Assembly (NCBI GenBank): GCA_934394595.1
Contig: CAKRRX010000138.1
Coordinates: 1 to 6,676 of the forward strand
Direction: 5' to 3'
Length of the DNA: 6,676 nt
Source: an uncultured Blautia sp.
GTDB taxonomy: Bacteria > Bacillota > Clostridia > Lachnospirales > Lachnospiraceae
Both the position numbers and the translations under genes were made by a program. This document shows positions 1-6,676 of the stretch, piece after piece (within the stretch, counting starts at the first letter, position 1; every line of letters begins with the position of its first letter). Below the pieces are notes generated by a model. The model saw nothing but the letters and a program-made list of their open reading frames with translations. It had not been told where the DNA came from and searched no databases.

Positions 1-116
1 GGTGCACAGCCGCGGCCAAGTTTCCCGTCTTCAGTTACAACATCAACTTCTACCATTGGCCTGCACTTGCAGTCTACGATCTGACGGGCATGTACAGATT
101 TGATTTTTGAACTCAT
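1..116 (-). CDS. Enolase paralog (phosphopyruvate hydratase-like), N-terminal fragment
   Basis: Only the first 38 codons are present; the gene runs off the left edge. The visible protein starts MSSKIKSVHARQIVD and continues through VEVDVVTEDGKLGRG, which matches the N-terminal domain of enolases (ARxIxDSRGNPTVEVDV...G...GR). Enolase interconverts 2-phosphoglycerate and phosphoenolpyruvate in the cytoplasm. The usual DSRGNP stretch reads DCKCRP here (residues 15-20) and the usual GRAAVP reads GRGCAP, so this is probably a diverged paralog and not the housekeeping enolase. The start is set by a GAGGAGA-type ribosome site (complement of 123-129) six bases upstream of the ATG. It lies 72 bp downstream of the glycerate 2-kinase gene on the same strand. 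That kinase makes the enolase substrate, so the pairing is metabolically coherent. Catalytic residues are outside the window, so activity cannot be judged. Confidence 0.8.
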   Translation of the reverse strand, partial: MSSKIKSVHARQIVDCKCRPMVEVDVVTEDGKLGRGCA

Positions 117-188: not shown

Positions 189-1595
189 TCAGTCTTCTAC
201 AGCAGGGATGTACAGTACGTTAAAGTCGCACAGGTTGGTTCCTGTATTACCTGTAAATACAGCATCACCCATAGCATCAAGTGCTTCATAGCATGCATGT
301 CCTCTCAGAGAACCAAATACATCCACACCTTTTTCAAGGGCTGTCTTGTAACTGGTGGAGTCACAGATACCGCCGGCTACAGGAGTAGTACCGTCTGTTC
401 CTTCGGAGTCAATAGAAAGCATACATGCGCCTTTGGTCTTGGCTGCAAGGATAGAGAAACTTAAAGTAAGTTCCTGTCCAGGTCCACCATGACCGGTAAT
501 GGTGCTGTTATCCAGAATCTTTGTAGTGGTTTCACCGGAGCTTAAGATAACGCAAGGCGGTTTGATCGGGTTTCCATAAGCCTGTGCTTCTCTTGCGATA
601 GAAGCGAAGAAAGAACCGGCATCTTTACTTTCACCTTCCAGGAAAGAAGAAAGGATCATTGCCTGAAGTCCCATTTCTTCTGCAATCTCCTTGGCATAGA
701 TACAGGAATCCGGAAGTGTATTCAGAAGGAAATAAGTATTGTCCGGGAATGCTTTCGGTGTCTCTCCTTCAGGTCCTACATTCATCAGATAATCTACAAC
801 ACTCTTTGGCAGACGGTCTGCAACGTTGTAATCACGAATAACTCTTCTTGCATCTTCCAGAGTAGTTTTGTCAGGTCCCATTGGGGTGCTGGCATATTTC
901 TCATAAGGAACTCCGATGTCTCCTGTTGCAGGATTTCCTACTGCATCGCTGATACCGAATCCGATCAGTTCTGCACCTACAGACTGGATACGTTTGGCAA
1001 GCATACCACCATTCATTGCGGAGATATGACGACGGATCGCATTGACTTCATAAATACCTGCACCGGATTTCAGCATAACATCTGTAGTTTTGATCTCATC
1101 TTCCAGAGTAATTCCTTCGATAGGGCAGCTCATAAGTGCGGAGCTTCCACCACTGATCACTACAATAAAGAGATCGTCCGGTCCGGCGTGATCTACCAGA
1201 TCCAGGATCTTCAGGCAGGCTTCGTATCCAGCCTGATTAGGAAGAGGATGTCCTCCTACATATACATCAGTATTCTGGAAATGATCGGTTTCTTCTGAGA
1301 TCTTTACAATAGCAATACCTTTGGTAAGTTTGTCTCCCAGGACTTCATCTACTGCCATAGCCATATGGTTGCAGGCTTTTCCGGCTCCAAGGAGATAGAC
1401 ATGTTTCTTTTTGGATAAATCCCATGTTTTTGCTCCGATATGCAATATATCGCCATCCAGATGCATGATACTTTTTATTCTTTCATAAGAATCAAGTCGC
1501 TGGAGTGTTTTATTTGTAATGTCCAGTACAATCTTTCTTGACTGGATATCTCCATGGGATGTGAGGGAATCATAGTTTTTAATCTTATTTTTCAT
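189..1595 (-). CDS. Glycerate 2-kinase, class II (DUF4147/MOFRL family)
   Basis: This 468-residue cytoplasmic enzyme is predicted to phosphorylate glycerate with ATP to 2-phosphoglycerate. Family landmarks appear in order: GAGKA (70-74) with the conserved Lys73; GGHPLPNQAG (114-123); ISGGSSAL (147-154), the counterpart of the usual LSGGGSAL; EVNAIRRHIS followed by GG (183-197); SDAVGNP (216-222). The C-terminal MOFRL part has SSGETT (352-357), GHGGPGQE (368-375), DSEGTDG (396-402) and TGNTGTN (448-454). Length is slightly above the usual 420-450 residues because of a longer N-terminus. The start is supported by AAGGGAGA (complement of 1605-1612) nine bases upstream. The usual SGPT motif reads STPM (236-239), and one glycine of the SGGGSAL loop is Ser. 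The likely promoter is the leftward one at 1697-1725. The gene is probably co-transcribed with the downstream enolase paralog. The family assignment is firm; the exact hydroxy-acid substrate is inferred. Confidence 0.93.
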   Translation of the reverse strand: MKNKIKNYDSLTSHGDIQSRKIVLDITNKTLQRLDSYERIKSIMHLDGDILHIGAKTWDLSKKKHVYLLGAGKACNHMAMAVDEVLGDKLTKGIAIVKISEETDHFQNTDVYVGGHPLPNQAGYEACLKILDLVDHAGPDDLFIVVISGGSSALMSCPIEGITLEDEIKTTDVMLKSGAGIYEVNAIRRHISAMNGGMLAKRIQSVGAELIGFGISDAVGNPATGDIGVPYEKYASTPMGPDKTTLEDARRVIRDYNVADRLPKSVVDYLMNVGPEGETPKAFPDNTYFLLNTLPDSCIYAKEIAEEMGLQAMILSSFLEGESKDAGSFFASIAREAQAYGNPIKPPCVILSSGETTTKILDNSTITGHGGPGQELTLSFSILAAKTKGACMLSIDSEGTDGTTPVAGGICDSTSYKTALEKGVDVFGSLRGHACYEALDAMGDAVFTGNTGTNLCDFNVLYIPAVED

Positions 1596-1696
1596 AATAA
1601 AGAATCTCCCTTTACTTCATGTGGATAGTGGGTAATGCTTATCAAGTATTAAATAAAACTAAAAGCGAAAAGCAAAATGTATTAAACTGTACCTAA

Positions 1697-1725
1697 ACAA
1701 TATCGCAATATATCGAATATGTCAA
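1697..1725 (-). promoter_or_regulatory. Predicted sigma-A promoter for the glycerate kinase-enolase transcript
   Basis: Read leftward, TTGACA (complement of 1720-1725) is followed by a 17-bp spacer and TATTGT (complement of 1697-1702). The -35 box is perfect and the -10 box matches TATAAT at four of six positions. Transcription would begin near 1690, giving a leader of about 95 nt before the kinase ATG. The match between this promoter and the rightward one supports the call. Confidence 0.65.
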
Positions 1726-1844
1726 TAGGGAAGTCGAAAAATGCAGATAAATGTGAAAAATACATAAAACGGGTATCTGAATATTGTGAAAATATCTGAA
1801 TACGATAAAAGAAAGCAAAAAATATTGACATATGCGATATATTG
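1706..1844. repeat. 22-bp inverted repeat overlapping both divergent promoters; candidate shared operator
   Basis: The left arm is 1706-1727 and the right arm is 1823-1844. Read on the + strand, the left arm begins CAATATATCG and ends ATATGTCAATA. The reverse complement of the right arm differs only at its eleventh base (21 of 22 identical). Each arm spans the -35 box and most of the spacer of its promoter. Arm centres are 117 bp apart, close to eleven helical turns. This placement fits binding sites for one regulator acting on both promoters, possibly with looping. The regulator is not encoded in the window. Confidence 0.75.
1774..1802 (+). repeat. Tandem direct repeat TATCTGAATA, 19-bp period; possible activator site
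   Basis: Two exact copies of TATCTGAATA lie at 1774-1783 and 1793-1802, 19 bp apart from start to start, which is just under two helical turns. They lie between the divergent promoters, about 58 to 86 bp upstream of the predicted rightward transcription start. An inverted TATCTG half occurs at 1744-1749. The arrangement resembles a direct-repeat activator site, but chance is possible in AT-rich DNA. Confidence 0.4.
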
Positions 1845-1853
1845 ACGTATTAT
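1825..1853 (+). promoter_or_regulatory. Predicted sigma-A promoter for the oxidoreductase-TRAP operon
   Basis: TTGACA (1825-1830), a 17-bp spacer and TATTAT (1848-1853) form a near-consensus promoter: the -35 box is perfect and the -10 box matches five of six positions. Transcription would begin near 1860, giving a leader of about 90 nt before the ATG at 1950. Confidence 0.75.
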
Positions 1854-1934
1854 AAATGTATTAAATAAAACATTACGAGCCGCGAGACAAGCAAAATGAA
1901 GCGAAGCAAACAAAAAACTACCATTTATATAATG

Positions 1935-1949: not shown

Positions 1950-3074
1950 ATGGCTCACAAAACAGAATTTCTTTATTTATCAGAACAGGATACAATTGAT
2001 GCAGGTGTTCTTGACGCTAAGAAATGTATTGACAATGCAGAAGAAGTATTTACCTTATTAAGTAAAGGTGATTACCTGATGGGTGGAGCAAACCACAACA
2101 GCCATGGTATGGGAATTGTATTCCCGAAAGAAAGCCCGTTCCCGAACATGCCTGTAGCAGGACCTGACAGAAGATTCGTTGCAATGCCGGCTTACCTGGG
2201 TGGACGTTTTGATGTATGTGGTAATAAATGGTACGGTTCCAACGCAGCTAACCCGAAGAACGGACTTCCAAGATCCGTCCTTACTGTTACATTAAATGAT
2301 AAAGAAACAGGAGAGCCGCTGGCATTCATGTCTGCAAACCTCTTAAGTGCAGCAAGAACCGGTGCTGTTCCTGGAGTTGCAGCAAGACATCTGGCAAGAA
2401 AAGATTCCGAAGTTATTGCAGTACTTGGATGTGGACAGATCAACAAATCCTGCCTTCGTTCTATTCTTACACAGCTTCCTAATATTAAGAAAGTTGTATG
2501 CTATGATATCTTTGAAGCAGCAGCAGATAAATTTGTAGCATGGGAAAAAGAAGAGATCGGACTTGAAGCAGTAGCAGAGCTTGATCTGGAAAAAGCTGTC
2601 AAAGACGCAGATGTTCTTACAGTAGCAGCATCCCGTCTGAAACCTCTCTATGTGAAAGACGAGTGGATGAAAGAAGGCGTTACTGTTCTGATCACAGGAC
2701 CGATGCAGACAGACGATTCCTTCTGGATGAGCACAAAACTTATCTATGATAACACAAGACTTCATGAAGCATATGTTCAGGAAGCAATTGATTCCGGTGA
2801 CAAAGCAGGATATTATAAAGGTGTTATCGGCGGACCGATCTATACTCTGATCGATGCCGGTAAGATGCCTGCACTGAAAGACTCTACAAGCATTGGTGAA
2901 GTAATCCTGGGTGAAAAAGCAGGACGTACAGATGATAAAGAAAGAGTTACTTTTGTAGCTTGTGGTATGGCAACATTTGACGTAGGACTTGGATATGATC
3001 TGTACCACACAGCACTTGATAAAGGAATCGGAACAAAACTGAAACTGTGGGATGATCCATACCAGACAAGATAA
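1950..3074 (+). CDS. Ornithine cyclodeaminase/mu-crystallin family NAD(P)-dependent oxidoreductase
   Basis: This 374-residue cytoplasmic protein starts MAHKTEFLYLSEQD. It carries the family's Lys-Trp segment (KWYGSNAANP, 93-102, with GLPRS at 105-109) and SAARTGAVPGVAARHLAR (133-150), which contains the conserved Arg-Thr. The Rossmann dinucleotide loop is VLGCGQIN (158-165), and the C-terminal helix region is GMATFDVGLGYD (339-350). Family members include ornithine cyclodeaminase, archaeal alanine dehydrogenase, ketimine reductases and iminosuccinate reductase. The GGDCPGKTE-type stretch that carries the catalytic Asp of true ornithine cyclodeaminases is not recognisable; the corresponding place reads ITGPMQTDDSF (248-258). 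Cyclodeaminase activity is therefore unlikely, and an imine- or keto-acid reductase is more plausible. It is longer than the usual 315-350 residues, with extra sequence around residues 45-75. From memory, close clostridial relatives are sometimes labelled tyramine oxidase subunit B; I cannot verify that name or see support for it here. It is first in the operon, before the TRAP genes. Confidence 0.88.
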   Translation: MAHKTEFLYLSEQDTIDAGVLDAKKCIDNAEEVFTLLSKGDYLMGGANHNSHGMGIVFPKESPFPNMPVAGPDRRFVAMPAYLGGRFDVCGNKWYGSNAANPKNGLPRSVLTVTLNDKETGEPLAFMSANLLSAARTGAVPGVAARHLARKDSEVIAVLGCGQINKSCLRSILTQLPNIKKVVCYDIFEAAADKFVAWEKEEIGLEAVAELDLEKAVKDADVLTVAASRLKPLYVKDEWMKEGVTVLITGPMQTDDSFWMSTKLIYDNTRLHEAYVQEAIDSGDKAGYYKGVIGGPIYTLIDAGKMPALKDSTSIGEVILGEKAGRTDDKERVTFVACGMATFDVGLGYDLYHTALDKGIGTKLKLWDDPYQTR

Positions 3075-3127: not shown

Positions 3128-3195
3128 AAAGGTGTCGCGACAGTCTTCTTCTATGCGAGAAGAAGACTATGTGTGGCACCTTTTATATTTTTTTA
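3128..3195 (+). terminator. Long intercistronic hairpin with T-rich tail; likely partial terminator or attenuator
   Basis: An inner stem AGTCTTCTTC/GAAGAAGACT (3142-3151 with 3159-3168) closes a seven-base loop. An outer stem AAAGGTG/CACCTTT (3128-3134 with 3177-3183) encloses it, and G-U-rich pairs partly fill the middle. The tract TTTTATATTTTTTT follows at 3181-3194. It lies 53 bp after the oxidoreductase stop and just before the transporter ribosome site. No promoter is evident between hairpin and transporter, so partial read-through would give less transporter than enzyme mRNA. Confidence 0.75.
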
Positions 3196-3218: not shown

Positions 3219-4505
3219 ATGTCTTGGTCACTTTTAGCGATGATCGTATGCTTTTTGCTTCTGATGGTAATCGGTTTGCCGATCGCATACAACCTGATCG
3301 TAACAACACTGGTGTACTCGCTGGTAGCAGGGTTTGACCCTATACAGATGGCGATTAAGATGTACGGTGGAATGAACAGTTTCTCATTCCTGGCTGTCCC
3401 GTTTTTTGTACTGACCGGTCAGCTTATGCTGAGAGGCGGTCTTCTGGAATCTCTGATCAAATTTGTAAATGCATGGTTCGGAAGATTCAAAGGTGCTATT
3501 GCTATCGTAACAATCGGCGCATCCCTTCTGATGGGATCTATCGTAGGCCTTGCAGTTGCATCTGCAGCATCTCTGGGAGCATTCCTGATCCCTATGATGA
3601 AAAAAGAAGGATATGCAGCACCATTTGCAGCAGCAGTTATGTCCTCTGCATCACTTCTGGGACCGATCATGCCGCCAAGTGTACTGATGATCCTCTACTG
3701 TACCGCAGTAGGTAAGACATCCATCACCGGTATCTTTATGTCGGCAGTAACACCGGCGATCACAATCGCAGTACTGCAGTGCCTTGTTGCACATCATGTA
3801 GCAAAGAAAAGAAATTATCCTTCCTATGGTAAAACAACACTTGCAGAAAAAGGAAAAGCAACTGCAACTGCAATTCCGGCTCTGCTCCTTCCGGTTATTA
3901 TCCTTGGTGGTATCTTTACCGGTGTTTTCTCTATTACAGAAGCATCTGGCGTAGCTGTTGTATACAGTGCGATCCTTTCCTTCTGTATTAACAGAAGTGT
4001 AAAACTGAAAGATATCCCTGACATGATCATTGAGGCTGCTTCCACATCCGGTCTGGTACTGATCCTGGCTGGTGCAGGTACTGCAATGGCATGGGGTATC
4101 GCAAATGAGCGTGTTATGGACCAGCTGATCGGACCATTATCCAGTATCCCGTCCTGGCTGTTCCTGCTTCTGGTAAATATTCTGATGCTGATCTGTGGTA
4201 TGTTCATGGATGATTATGCATCTACAGTTATCCTTGCCCCGATCATTGCTCCGATCGCATGGGCACTGGGAATCAACCCATTACATATCGGTGTTGTATT
4301 CTGTATCAACCTGGTTGTAGGTCTGGCAACACCACCGTTTGGTATCACATTATTCGTAACAAGCCCTGTTGCAGGTGTAAGGCTGGAGGAAACTGCAAAA
4401 GAAGCTCTGCCGTTCCTGGCGGTAACGATCGGTGTATTGTTACTGGTAACATTTGTACCGCAGTTTGCACTGTGGCTGCCTAATCTGATGGGCTATACAG
4501 GATAA
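3219..4505 (+). CDS. TRAP transporter large permease subunit (DctM family)
   Basis: This 428-residue integral membrane protein is of normal length for the large subunit, the channel-forming part of a Na+- or H+-driven tripartite ATP-independent periplasmic-type transporter. It is almost entirely hydrophobic helices with short polar links. The duplicated family motifs are clear: MGSIVGLAVASAASLGAFLIP (105-125), followed by GPIMPPSVLMILY (148-160) in the first half, and VVGLATPPFGITLFV (366-380) with SPVAGVRLEE in the second. The start MSWSLLAMIV leads straight into the first membrane segment. It precedes the binding-protein gene by 29 bp, with no promoter visible. It is the first transporter gene here, whereas TRAP operons more often run binding protein, small subunit, large subunit. 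The substrate cannot be inferred from this subunit. Confidence 0.95.
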   Translation: MSWSLLAMIVCFLLLMVIGLPIAYNLIVTTLVYSLVAGFDPIQMAIKMYGGMNSFSFLAVPFFVLTGQLMLRGGLLESLIKFVNAWFGRFKGAIAIVTIGASLLMGSIVGLAVASAASLGAFLIPMMKKEGYAAPFAAAVMSSASLLGPIMPPSVLMILYCTAVGKTSITGIFMSAVTPAITIAVLQCLVAHHVAKKRNYPSYGKTTLAEKGKATATAIPALLLPVIILGGIFTGVFSITEASGVAVVYSAILSFCINRSVKLKDIPDMIIEAASTSGLVLILAGAGTAMAWGIANERVMDQLIGPLSSIPSWLFLLLVNILMLICGMFMDDYASTVILAPIIAPIAWALGINPLHIGVVFCINLVVGLATPPFGITLFVTSPVAGVRLEETAKEALPFLAVTIGVLLLVTFVPQFALWLPNLMGYTG

Positions 4506-4534
4506 CGACTTTAGATCAAGGAGGAAGATGAATC

Positions 4535-5620
4535 ATGAAGAAAAGAAGCGTAACAGTATTTTTTGCAGTTGCACTGGCTGCGGCAGTGTCCATTACAGCA
4601 ACTGGTTGTGATATGAAACGTACCAACAGCTCCGGCGGAAGTGGAAGTGCCGGTGTGGATGAAGATATTTCCGGTGATTATGTAATTCGAGTAGCATGCG
4701 AAAACTCTGATACTTATCCGTCAACTCTTGGTCTTAATGTTATGAAAGATTATATTGAAACACAGACAGATGGCCATGTACAGGTTAATATTTATGCCAG
4801 CGGACAGCTTGGAGGAGAGGAAGAAACTCTTGAGCAGGTTGCACAGGGATCTCTGGAAATGGCAGTAGCATCTTTTGCACCTGTTGTATCTTACGACCCG
4901 GAGTTTGAAGTTATGGATATTCCTTTTGTATACAGTAATTATAATCAGGCGTGGATGGTTCTTGACAGTCATGTAGGTACTGATATGATGGCAACTCTGG
5001 AAGATTATGGAATGGTTGGACTGGCATTTATGGAAAACGGATTCCGTCAGGTTACAAGTAACAAAGCTCCTATTACAAGCATTGCTGACTTTAAGGGACA
5101 GAAGCTTCGTACCATGCAGAACAACAATCACATTGCATTCTTCCAGGCACTTGGTGCGAACCCCACACCGGTTGCATTTTCCGAACTGTATATGGCTCTG
5201 AACCAGAACACAGTAGATGCACAGGAAAACCCGATCGCCAACGTTACAGATAAGAAGCTTTACGAAGTACAGAAATATCTTTCTATTACTAATCATATTT
5301 ATGATGCAATGCCTCTGGTTTGCAACAAAGATTACTTAGACAGTCTCCCAGGTAAATATCAGGGAATTGTAAAGACAGGTGCAACACTGGGCATGGAGTA
5401 CAGCCGATTCTGTAATGCAGAACGTGAGGATCTGATTCTTGAAGAACTGAAGAAAGAAGGCATGGAGATCAATGAAGTAGAAGATGCAGCTCGTGAAGAA
5501 ATGAAAGAAGTTGCTCAGCCTGCTGCTATTGAATCCATCGCCAAAGACATCGGACAGGAAAAAGTTGACAAATATCTGGAAGATGTACAGACAGTGCTTG
5601 GAGAGATCAGTAACTACTAA
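4535..5620 (+). CDS. TRAP transporter solute-binding lipoprotein (DctP family)
   Basis: This 361-residue protein captures the substrate outside the membrane and delivers it to the membrane subunits. Residues 1-25 form a lipoprotein signal: basic MKKR, a hydrophobic core, then ATGC with the lipidated Cys25. A Ser-Gly linker (residues 31-40) follows. The binding domain has YASGQLGGEEETLEQVAQGSLEMA (87-110), GFRQVTSNKAPI (169-180) and ADFKGQKLRTM (184-194), where Arg192 corresponds to the carboxylate-binding Arg of the family. TPVAFSELYMALNQNTVDAQENP (211-233) is also diagnostic. The conserved Arg implies a carboxylate-bearing ligand. A ribosome site AAGGAGG (4518-4524) lies ten bases upstream; an ATG at 4528 is out of frame. 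A lipid anchor is expected in a Gram-positive cell, where no periplasm would retain the protein. Confidence 0.95.
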   Translation: MKKRSVTVFFAVALAAAVSITATGCDMKRTNSSGGSGSAGVDEDISGDYVIRVACENSDTYPSTLGLNVMKDYIETQTDGHVQVNIYASGQLGGEEETLEQVAQGSLEMAVASFAPVVSYDPEFEVMDIPFVYSNYNQAWMVLDSHVGTDMMATLEDYGMVGLAFMENGFRQVTSNKAPITSIADFKGQKLRTMQNNNHIAFFQALGANPTPVAFSELYMALNQNTVDAQENPIANVTDKKLYEVQKYLSITNHIYDAMPLVCNKDYLDSLPGKYQGIVKTGATLGMEYSRFCNAEREDLILEELKKEGMEINEVEDAAREEMKEVAQPAAIESIAKDIGQEKVDKYLEDVQTVLGEISNY

Positions 5621-5631
5621 TTAATGTATAC

Positions 5632-5675
5632 ATAGTGACTGTTCGGCAGCTATGATATTGCTGAACAGTTACTGT
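5632..5675 (+). other. Intercistronic hairpin after the binding-protein gene
   Basis: GTGACTGTTCGGCAG (5635-5649) pairs with TTGCTGAACAGTTAC (5658-5672) over about 15 base pairs, including several G-U pairs, around an eight-base loop. It starts some 12 bases after the binding-protein stop and has no T run after it, so it is unlikely to terminate transcription. A hairpin here could protect the upstream mRNA from 3'-5' decay and so raise the level of binding protein over the membrane subunits. That role is inferred from its position. Confidence 0.65.
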
Positions 5676-5683
5676 ACAGAAAT

Positions 5684-5688
5684 AGGAG
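5684..5688 (+). promoter_or_regulatory. Ribosome binding site fixing the DctQ start at 5698
   Basis: AGGAG ends nine bases before the ATG at 5698. The in-frame ATG at 5689 directly abuts the site and so has no usable spacing. Confidence 0.8.
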
Positions 5689-5697
5689 ATGAAAAAT

Positions 5698-6240
5698 ATG
5701 GTAGAAACTATGGATAAGATCGTAGGTGTTCTTTACAAGATTATTCGTGTGGCTCTCTGTGTGATCCTGCTTGCAATGATCGGAATTCTGATGGCACATA
5801 TCATTTTCAGATATATTCTGAACAGTTCTCTGACCTGGTCAGAGGAACTTCTGAAGATTCTGCTGGTATGGTTTGGTATGATGAGTGTTTCTGTTCTTGC
5901 AGCCCGCAGAGAACATGTATCTATCGTTATCTTTAAAGAACGTATGCCAAAGAAAGTGGCAGATATTTTGACAAAAGTAACTCAGATCCTTACAGTTGCT
6001 ATCTGTATTGTTGTAATTTATGCAGGAATGAGATATGTGCTTCTGGCAGGACATCGTCCTACACCAGCGCTGAGACTTCCTTACAGATATGCTTATGCAG
6101 CAATCCCGGTTTCCTTCTGTTTTGTAACGATTTTTGAACTGCGTAACCTGCTGGTTGAACTTACCGGCAAAGGTCCTTATGCAGCAATCGAAAAACCGGA
6201 AGAAGACCTGACAGGTGGAAAAGAAGTAACACTGGATTAA
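5698..6240 (+). CDS. TRAP transporter small permease subunit (DctQ family)
   Basis: This 180-residue protein is the small membrane subunit that pairs with the large permease. Four hydrophobic segments are visible at about residues 13-36, 51-69, 93-113 and 131-149. The family signature FRYILNSSLTWSEELL (37-52) is clear, followed by a hydrophobic run and AARREHVSI (68-76). TPALRLPYRYAYAAIPVSF (122-140) matches the usual TPALGIP...AIP region before the last helix. The C-terminal 25 or so residues are charged and probably cytoplasmic. It is the last gene of the transporter operon, 77 bp after the binding-protein gene, and is followed directly by a strong terminator. Confidence 0.93.
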   Translation: MVETMDKIVGVLYKIIRVALCVILLAMIGILMAHIIFRYILNSSLTWSEELLKILLVWFGMMSVSVLAARREHVSIVIFKERMPKKVADILTKVTQILTVAICIVVIYAGMRYVLLAGHRPTPALRLPYRYAYAAIPVSFCFVTIFELRNLLVELTGKGPYAAIEKPEEDLTGGKEVTLD

Positions 6241-6256
6241 GTAAATAGAAATTATG

Positions 6257-6300
6257 AAGTGCCGCATAGTTCTTTTAGAAAGACTGTATGCGGCACTTTT
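6257..6300 (+). terminator. Intrinsic terminator ending the oxidoreductase-TRAP operon
   Basis: AAGTGCCGCATA (6257-6268) pairs perfectly with TATGCGGCACTT (6287-6298). An inner TCTTT/AAAGA stem (6271-6275 with 6279-6283) extends it. A short T run, TTTT, closes the structure at 6297-6300, 17 bases after the last transporter stop. The stem is GC-rich compared with its surroundings. The short T tract suggests some read-through into the next gene. Confidence 0.85.
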
Positions 6301-6340: not shown

Positions 6341-6349
6341 ATGAAAGAG

Positions 6350-6676
6350 ATGTTTAAGATTGATACAGCCGGCGAAAATATAGTATATACAGATACGGAT
6401 CTTAATGTAGAATTTTGTGTTCCTGCCAATGACTGTTCAGGCATGAAATATACACAGGAAATTTCTCCATTAAATGAAAAAGAAGATATAAAAAAAGCAT
6501 TTTTGTCCCCTGTATCTGGTAAAAGACTGTCAGAGATTGCGAAAGAGAGAAAAAGTAAAACGGCAGCAGTGCTGATATCAGATGCAACAAGGGGAATTTC
6601 CAATGCGGTCCTTGCAGCCCATGTGATCAGAGAGCTGGAAGAAGGTGGCCTTAAACTGAAAGATATTACATTTTTT
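6350..6676 (+). CDS. LarA-like (lactate racemase/DUF2088 family) protein, N-terminal fragment
   Basis: The first 109 codons are present and the gene runs off the right edge. The protein starts MFKIDTAGEN. After an acidic first half it shows PVSGKRLSEIAKERKSK (54-70), then AAVLISDATRGISN (72-85), then a helix ending in EEGGLKLKDITFF (97-109). This order matches the N-terminal domain of LarA and its homologs, where a proline precedes the LxEIA helix and a DxTR motif (Asp78, Thr80, Arg81 here) follows a hydrophobic strand. LarA uses a nickel pincer nucleotide cofactor to racemise lactate, and homologs act on other 2-hydroxy acids. The cofactor-binding His and Lys residues would lie beyond the window, so activity and substrate are open. 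The gene is on the same strand as the TRAP operon but lies behind its terminator. It may be read through at a low level or have its own weak promoter. Confidence 0.72.
   Translation, partial: MFKIDTAGENIVYTDTDLNVEFCVPANDCSGMKYTQEISPLNEKEDIKKAFLSPVSGKRLSEIAKERKSKTAAVLISDATRGISNAVLAAHVIRELEEGGLKLKDITFF

Follow-up and report, generated by a model that had tools for sequence, protein, structure and literature searches.

Predicted GntR and RpiR operators on the mirror-image divergent promoters of a glycerate kinase and TRAP transporter locus in Lachnospiraceae

Why two divergent promoters should carry nearly the same sequence between their -35 and -10 boxes, and which regulator or regulators might read it, is the question raised by a 6,676-nucleotide stretch of DNA from an uncultured Blautia sp. 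(assembly GCA_934394595.1, contig CAKRRX010000138.1; hereafter the window, to which coordinates refer unless another locus is named). The left operon, on the minus strand, comprises a gckA-type glycerate kinase gene (189..1595; PF13660 and PF05161) followed by the start of an enolase-like gene (1..116), cut by the window end, which is identical at 36 of 38 residues to the gene of locus L003 and whose homologue in L005 passes TIGR01060 eno. The right operon, on the plus strand, comprises an OCD-family oxidoreductase gene (1950..3074; PF02423, with NF004848 above cut-off), the TRAP transporter genes dctM, dctP and dctQ (3219..6240; PF06808, PF03480 and PF04290) and the start of a LarA-like gene (6341..6676; PF09861), again cut by the window end. 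Strong RNA hairpins lie between the genes of this operon at 3128-3183 (z -6.75, with a T-run behind it), 5636-5671 (z -5.61) and 6256-6298 (z -6.26), and may serve partial termination or transcript protection. Given the glycerate kinase and enolase-like genes, and in relatives also glutamate dehydrogenase and hydroxyacid dehydrogenase genes, the locus would fit the breakdown of amino or hydroxy acids via glycerate to phosphoenolpyruvate. In Erwinia sp. (L018) and Sinorhizobium terangae (L025), the gck, enolase-like, OCD and glutamate dehydrogenase genes form one same-strand run, which suggests one conserved catabolic pathway. The oxidoreductase was found at 62 loci in a scan of the genome collection; 29 loci with genomes, together with the window, formed the co-occurrence set, the other loci of the scan being mostly proteobacterial, with L018 and L025 as the only two proteobacterial controls. 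Amongst 16 loci compared by DNA, the nearest relative is L003 (77.4% over 5856 aligned nt), and identity between the window and its relatives ranges from 67.8 to 77.4%.

The initial annotation of this region had described a 22-nt inverted repeat, and positions 1706-1727 and 1823-1844 do indeed pair, with 21 matches over 22 positions. Among 1000 dinucleotide-shuffled versions of the 354-nt intergenic region, none yielded a 22-nt inverted pair with more than 18 matches. Inverted similarity extends further, to 1676-1727 against 1823-1874 (38 of 52 bases), owing to a second site behind each -10 box, and the 22-nt repeat is thus part of a longer mirror-image cassette. The promoter-like pairs described alongside the repeat (TTGACA, a 17-nt spacer and TATTxT) are likewise both present: the predicted promoter of the gckA-enolase operon has TTGACA at 1725-1720 and TATTGT at 1702-1697 on the minus strand, and that of the oxidoreductase-TRAP operon has TTGACA at 1825-1830 and TATTAT at 1848-1853 on the plus strand, each with 17 nt between the boxes. 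Both have the sigma-70-type TTGACA-17-TATAAT-like form, with 11 and 10 of 12 matches in the two predicted promoters, and each -35 is identical in 6/6 aligned sequences. Over the whole window promoter-like sites are not in excess (12 against 14.6 in shuffles), and the intergenic DNA has no match among plasmid records.

What fills the two spacers is a palindrome, site A (TTGCRATATATYGCAA-like), at 1703..1718 on the left (profile score 16.3) and at 1832..1847 on the right (14.5). A centre distance of 117 bp had been given for the pair; this holds for the centres of the arms, whilst the likely operators within them are centred 129 bp apart. Amongst 19 OCD-side promoters, a total that includes L004 (not scorable at a contig edge and never counted as a hit), A lies 1 nt after the -35 with a score of 12.7 or more in ten; elsewhere it is weak (L013), shifted (L011), overlapping the -35 (L014 and L035) or past the -10 (L019 and L023), and L001 and L002 have no good A. 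On the gckA side A occupies the spacer position in 13 of 16 promoters, a total in which L008, L058 and L014 are included and never counted as hits; by alignment, L008 and L058 have kept TTGACA and the second site and lost A, and in L014 an A can be read in the spacer by eye. A keeps its sequence but moves with respect to the promoter, which is most readily explained if a protein binds it. The earlier proposal that the shared spacer sequence is an operator gains from this mobility and from the palindromic form, and comparison of the loci supports A as an operator rather than as promoter sequence.

The second site, B, is a pseudo-palindrome (TGTATTAAATAAAACA-like) that reads TGTATT-N4-AAAACA, with more symmetric forms in relatives (TGTATTAAATAATACA and TGTATCATTTAATACA). 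In the window it begins 3 nt after each -10, at 1678..1693 on the left (profile score 13.1) and, as TGTATTAAATAAAACA, at 1857..1872 on the right (17.2); a further candidate for B, in the leader of gckA (1645..1660), has 14/16 pattern matches and falls below the B profile threshold of 15. The 3-nt gap recurs in 14 of the 19 OCD-side promoters (weakly in L035), the gap being 6 in L011; there is no B at that place in L012, L019 and L023, and L004 is again not scorable. On the gckA side the gap is 3 in half of the 16 promoters (8/16), 4 in L003, 1 in L002 and 13 in L011, with no B in L001 and L012. A scan of 14 genomes for B, allowing one mismatch, gave 24 occurrences, of which 14 fall in this intergenic region or next to gntR, as do 10 of 11 exact matches; the corresponding scan for A with up to two mismatches was noisier, among the matches listed. 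An exact match in G013:C4, inside a 455-aa reading frame, was treated as chance. The pseudo-palindromic form and TGTA/TACA-like ends of B are features of RpiR-type operators, and binding by an RpiR protein is predicted.

That both arms would be conserved in close relatives, as the initial annotation expected, held in part: in an alignment of the window with five relatives both arms recur, but left A is lost in two of the five (L008 and L058). Mean identity to the window in these six sequences was 1.0 for both -35 boxes, 0.96 for right B, 0.79 for left B, 0.69 for right A, 0.60 for left A, 0.53 for the middle and 0.27-0.36 for the leaders. Left A hardly rises above the middle, a low value explained by the two losses, and the case for A therefore rests on the wider set of loci.

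A third A site (A3; score 17.8) lies within the gckA coding sequence at 1440..1455. Sixteen gckA genes were examined, and in nine of the eleven with Ile at the relevant column the codon is ATA, against a background of 87 ATA amongst the 663 Ile codons of these genes; among 40 comparable columns of Ile, the runner-up has ATA in 4/16. The two exceptions, L002 and L162, use ATC CTG, so that the protein does not force the site, and another residue occupies the column in L010, L011, L013, L028 and L035. Judged by these codons, A3 is held by codon choice, with a weaker signal in a windowed statistic over 14 genes (rank 5 and 9 of 457).

The window ends before any regulator gene, and in relatives a pair of genes encoding a GntR/FCD and an RpiR/SIS protein is found; a nearby GntR-type regulator had been amongst those envisaged for this locus, and one is indeed linked in these relatives. 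Proteins of L005, L002 and L035 score above cut-off for PF00392 and PF07729 (FCD) in the case of GntR and for PF01418 (HTH_6) and PF01380 (SIS) in the case of RpiR. Both homologues lie within 12 of 19 loci examined, and in G006 and G008 (L161, L162) the pair falls a short way beyond the locus. L035 also has an AraC-type gene, whose cluster has further members in L019 and L028; the regulator genes common to most loci are GntR and RpiR. The prediction of one regulator switching both operons is probably incomplete, since each promoter has two site types and two regulator genes are linked in relatives.

On this evidence A is probably the operator of a GntR/FCD repressor, and B that of a separate RpiR/SIS repressor, on both of the mirror-image promoters. 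Sites, geometry and regulator co-occurrence can be read from the DNA itself, and it is from these that we infer binding, repression, ligands and looping; repression, rather than activation, is suggested by the position of the sites. A ligand-free GntR dimer would occupy the spacer of each promoter and exclude RNA polymerase, and an RpiR dimer over the start point, probably answering to a phosphorylated pathway intermediate, would act as a second lock; once both locks were lifted, the gckA-enolase and oxidoreductase-TRAP-LarA operons would open together. Extra A copies, one inside gckA and others at a spacing of 107-131 bp in the majority of loci, would raise GntR occupancy by cooperation or by a short DNA loop. 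The whole of a regulon-wide two-lock cassette, with GntR in the spacer and RpiR at the start in fixed register, on both divergent and scattered promoters of one catabolic pathway, with a phased loop and an operator held in gckA codons, is a more tentative proposal, to which we would give somewhat less than an even chance.

Whether the A sites form a loop is where the strongest rival parts from this proposal: the same sites and proteins may act without looping, each promoter being closed independently through its own A and B sites, with the spacing a reflection of shared ancestry, a reading whose chances fall just short of even. The initial annotation held that the spacing would allow a loop. 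Taken modulo 10.5 bp, thirteen A-A distances between 107 and 163 bp fall into a cluster (R=0.68, p=0.0013); this set includes a weak right A in L013 (score 5.1) and leaves out L001 (82 bp), L002 (139 bp) and L162 (107 bp, with one site degraded), along with L004, L008 and L058, which have no pair, and L019 and L023, which have another arrangement. Collapsed by relatedness, a step taken after the data had been seen, nine distances give p=0.024 with a best period nearer 11. When every pair is included by adding L001, L002 and L162, the 16 values give p=0.0038, but the 11 collapsed values p=0.063, a result that suits independent promoters, as does the loss of left A in L008 and L058. In a synthetic promoter test LldR gained nothing by looping from a second site (PMC7804116), and since LldR has been placed with the FadR subfamily (PMC4494728), the analogy counts mildly against loops by FadR-type proteins. 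Against independent promoters stands the fate of A where gckA and OCD are no longer divergent, as in G006 and G008. There the separated gckA promoter (L161 and L162) keeps TTGACA, A in the spacer, the -10 and B at gap 3, with a second A 107 bp upstream that scores 17.8 in L161 and is degraded in L162 (6.9), and the separated OCD promoters keep a second A 120 bp (L007) and 108 bp (L009) upstream. By eye, the extra copies in separated operons have no matching -35/-10 pair, and the second A thus persists in L007, L009 and L161 away from an evident promoter. Taken together, the retained copies and the phased spacings hint at short-loop formation between A sites, a hint that the p-value for all collapsed pairs weakens.

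The assignment of sites to proteins draws on co-occurrence. Genome searches found GntR in all of a first 14 genomes and in 4 of 15 others, and RpiR in 13 of the 14, with four more (at least 49% identity) among 16 genomes, one of these repeated; G305 has an RpiR homologue at 31% identity, and matches of 27% or less (G233, G464 and G469) were counted as absent. Sites were scored with leave-one-out profiles against 200 single-base shuffles per locus, at a cut of p<=0.015 chosen after the scores had been seen. A passes this cut in 17 of 18 loci with GntR against none of 11 without; the exception is L002 (p=0.06), and the nearest GntR-free loci are L028 (0.025) and L018 (0.035). B passes in 16 of 17 loci with RpiR (at least 49% identity) against one of 11 without, and also in L143 of G305. 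L140 of G081 falls below the cut despite its RpiR, and L014 passes although no RpiR was detected; as its contig breaks off within gntR, the gene after which rpiR would be expected, its RpiR may be unassembled. As the genomes are related, none of these counts are independent.

More telling are the genomes in which the two parts dissociate, and it is these that bear on the possibility that the assignments are swapped or foreign, with RpiR at A, GntR at B, or one of the sites belonging to a third regulator elsewhere. Such an exchange draws on the fact that A has no GT/AC pair 2-4 nt apart and so does not fit the FadR-subfamily operator consensus NyGTM-N0-1-KACNy as stated in a survey of GntR proteins (PMC4494728), and on the sites given for FarR, of the GntR family (TGTATTAWTT), which resemble half of B. 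L012 (G011), however, keeps GntR and A where B is absent, with no RpiR in the genome and no RpiR remnant in the locus. Conversely, a survey of 397 genomes of the family, based on the best few candidates per genome, found GntR in at least four and RpiR in at least eight, and, amongst those candidates, RpiR without GntR in G081, G273, G356 and G376. With G305, these five genomes contain six GntR-free RpiR regions, of which four, in four genomes, have B at a score of 14 or more (shuffle background 0-0.03 per region) and none of the six has A. The distance from B to the downstream rpiR is about 35 bp in G356 and about 80 bp in G305; in G273, where the genes run gck-eno-rpiR, two copies stand ahead of gck or at its start; G376 has its B 2.4 kb from rpiR, and in G081 neither of the two RpiR homologues has a clear B. 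This dissociation favours GntR as the protein at A and RpiR as that at B, and leaves a swapped or foreign assignment unlikely.

A single regulator on both spacer sites, with B belonging to the leader or start region and having no part in regulation, would make sense of the spacer palindrome being the strongest part of the repeat and of L012 keeping A where B is absent. It is nevertheless highly unlikely, for B is palindromic, keeps a fixed 3-nt gap in 14/19 OCD-side promoters, co-occurs with RpiR, and is found near rpiR or gck in three of the five GntR-free RpiR genomes (2.4 kb off in a fourth). Lastly, a local inverted duplication of a strong promoter, not yet diverged and with arms of no operator role, could account for the 38/52 bases that the arms share and for -35 boxes identical in all six aligned sequences, but has very little chance of being right, given loci old enough to differ to the extent stated above in which both arms nonetheless recur, and given an A that is found outside the spacer in L014, L035, L019 and L023 and inside gckA.

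The preferred reading, GntR at A and RpiR at B, can be set beside several known systems. In E. coli gal, the GalR operators OE and OI are 113 bp (11 helical turns) apart, serve two promoters and loop in a phase-dependent manner (PMC4693257). As described there, gal resembles this locus in having two operators of one repressor, two promoters and similar spacing; unlike gal, the promoters here are divergent, the sites lie within spacers, the predicted protein is of the GntR/FCD type and each promoter carries the site of a second regulator. Like HexR and RccR of Pseudomonas, the second protein is an RpiR/SIS protein of carbon metabolism (PMC5489143), although the L005 RpiR falls far short of the cut-offs of the HexR and AlsR models. 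RccR sites are reported to have TGTAGT/ACTACA ends, with one site 292 bp inside the pckA reading frame (PMC5489143), whereas B reads differently and belongs to another regulon in other organisms. Double sites between divergent operons are described in the GntR survey, in some cases cooperative, in others each assigned to one operon (PMC4494728), but both A copies here exactly fill promoter spacers and a third lies in a gene, unlike the double sites described in that survey. A repressor operator within a 17-bp spacer has been built in the lac Pspacer library (PMC7804116); that library, as described, is synthetic and LacI-based, whereas the sites here are natural, paired and kept across relatives. 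No paper with the two-site divergent combination was found in the open-licence PMC literature; the combination would be a new regulon architecture from familiar parts, each of which has precedents. If the reading is true, an uncharacterised set of catabolic genes in Lachnospiraceae and beyond would form a regulon with two inputs and with A and B motifs sharp enough for searching. The loci would also allow the same operators to be compared, in nature, between divergent and separated operons, and the site in gckA would be an intragenic operator visible through codon choice, of a kind rarely sought in annotation.

Sites of both types also occur beside other genes of these loci. A good A lies upstream of glutamate dehydrogenase in L002 (two copies), L003, L006 and L013; it is absent there in L005, L008, L010 and L058, where the gene follows closely behind the enolase gene. 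Both copies in L002 (5813-5896 of that locus) overlap GTATACAATATATTGC, a sequence that contains GTATAC and might combine sites for two proteins. Beside gntR in L161 lies a D-2-hydroxyacid dehydrogenase gene with B 3 nt after its predicted -10; between the two genes (1900-2500 of that locus) this plus-strand promoter faces a minus-strand promoter-like site in which, by eye, A occupies the spacer. In L138 (G292), which has neither regulator and neither A nor B, an inverted repeat TACCT-N6-AGGTA can be seen by eye upstream of OCD, shortly after the predicted -10, and is perhaps the result of an operator swap.
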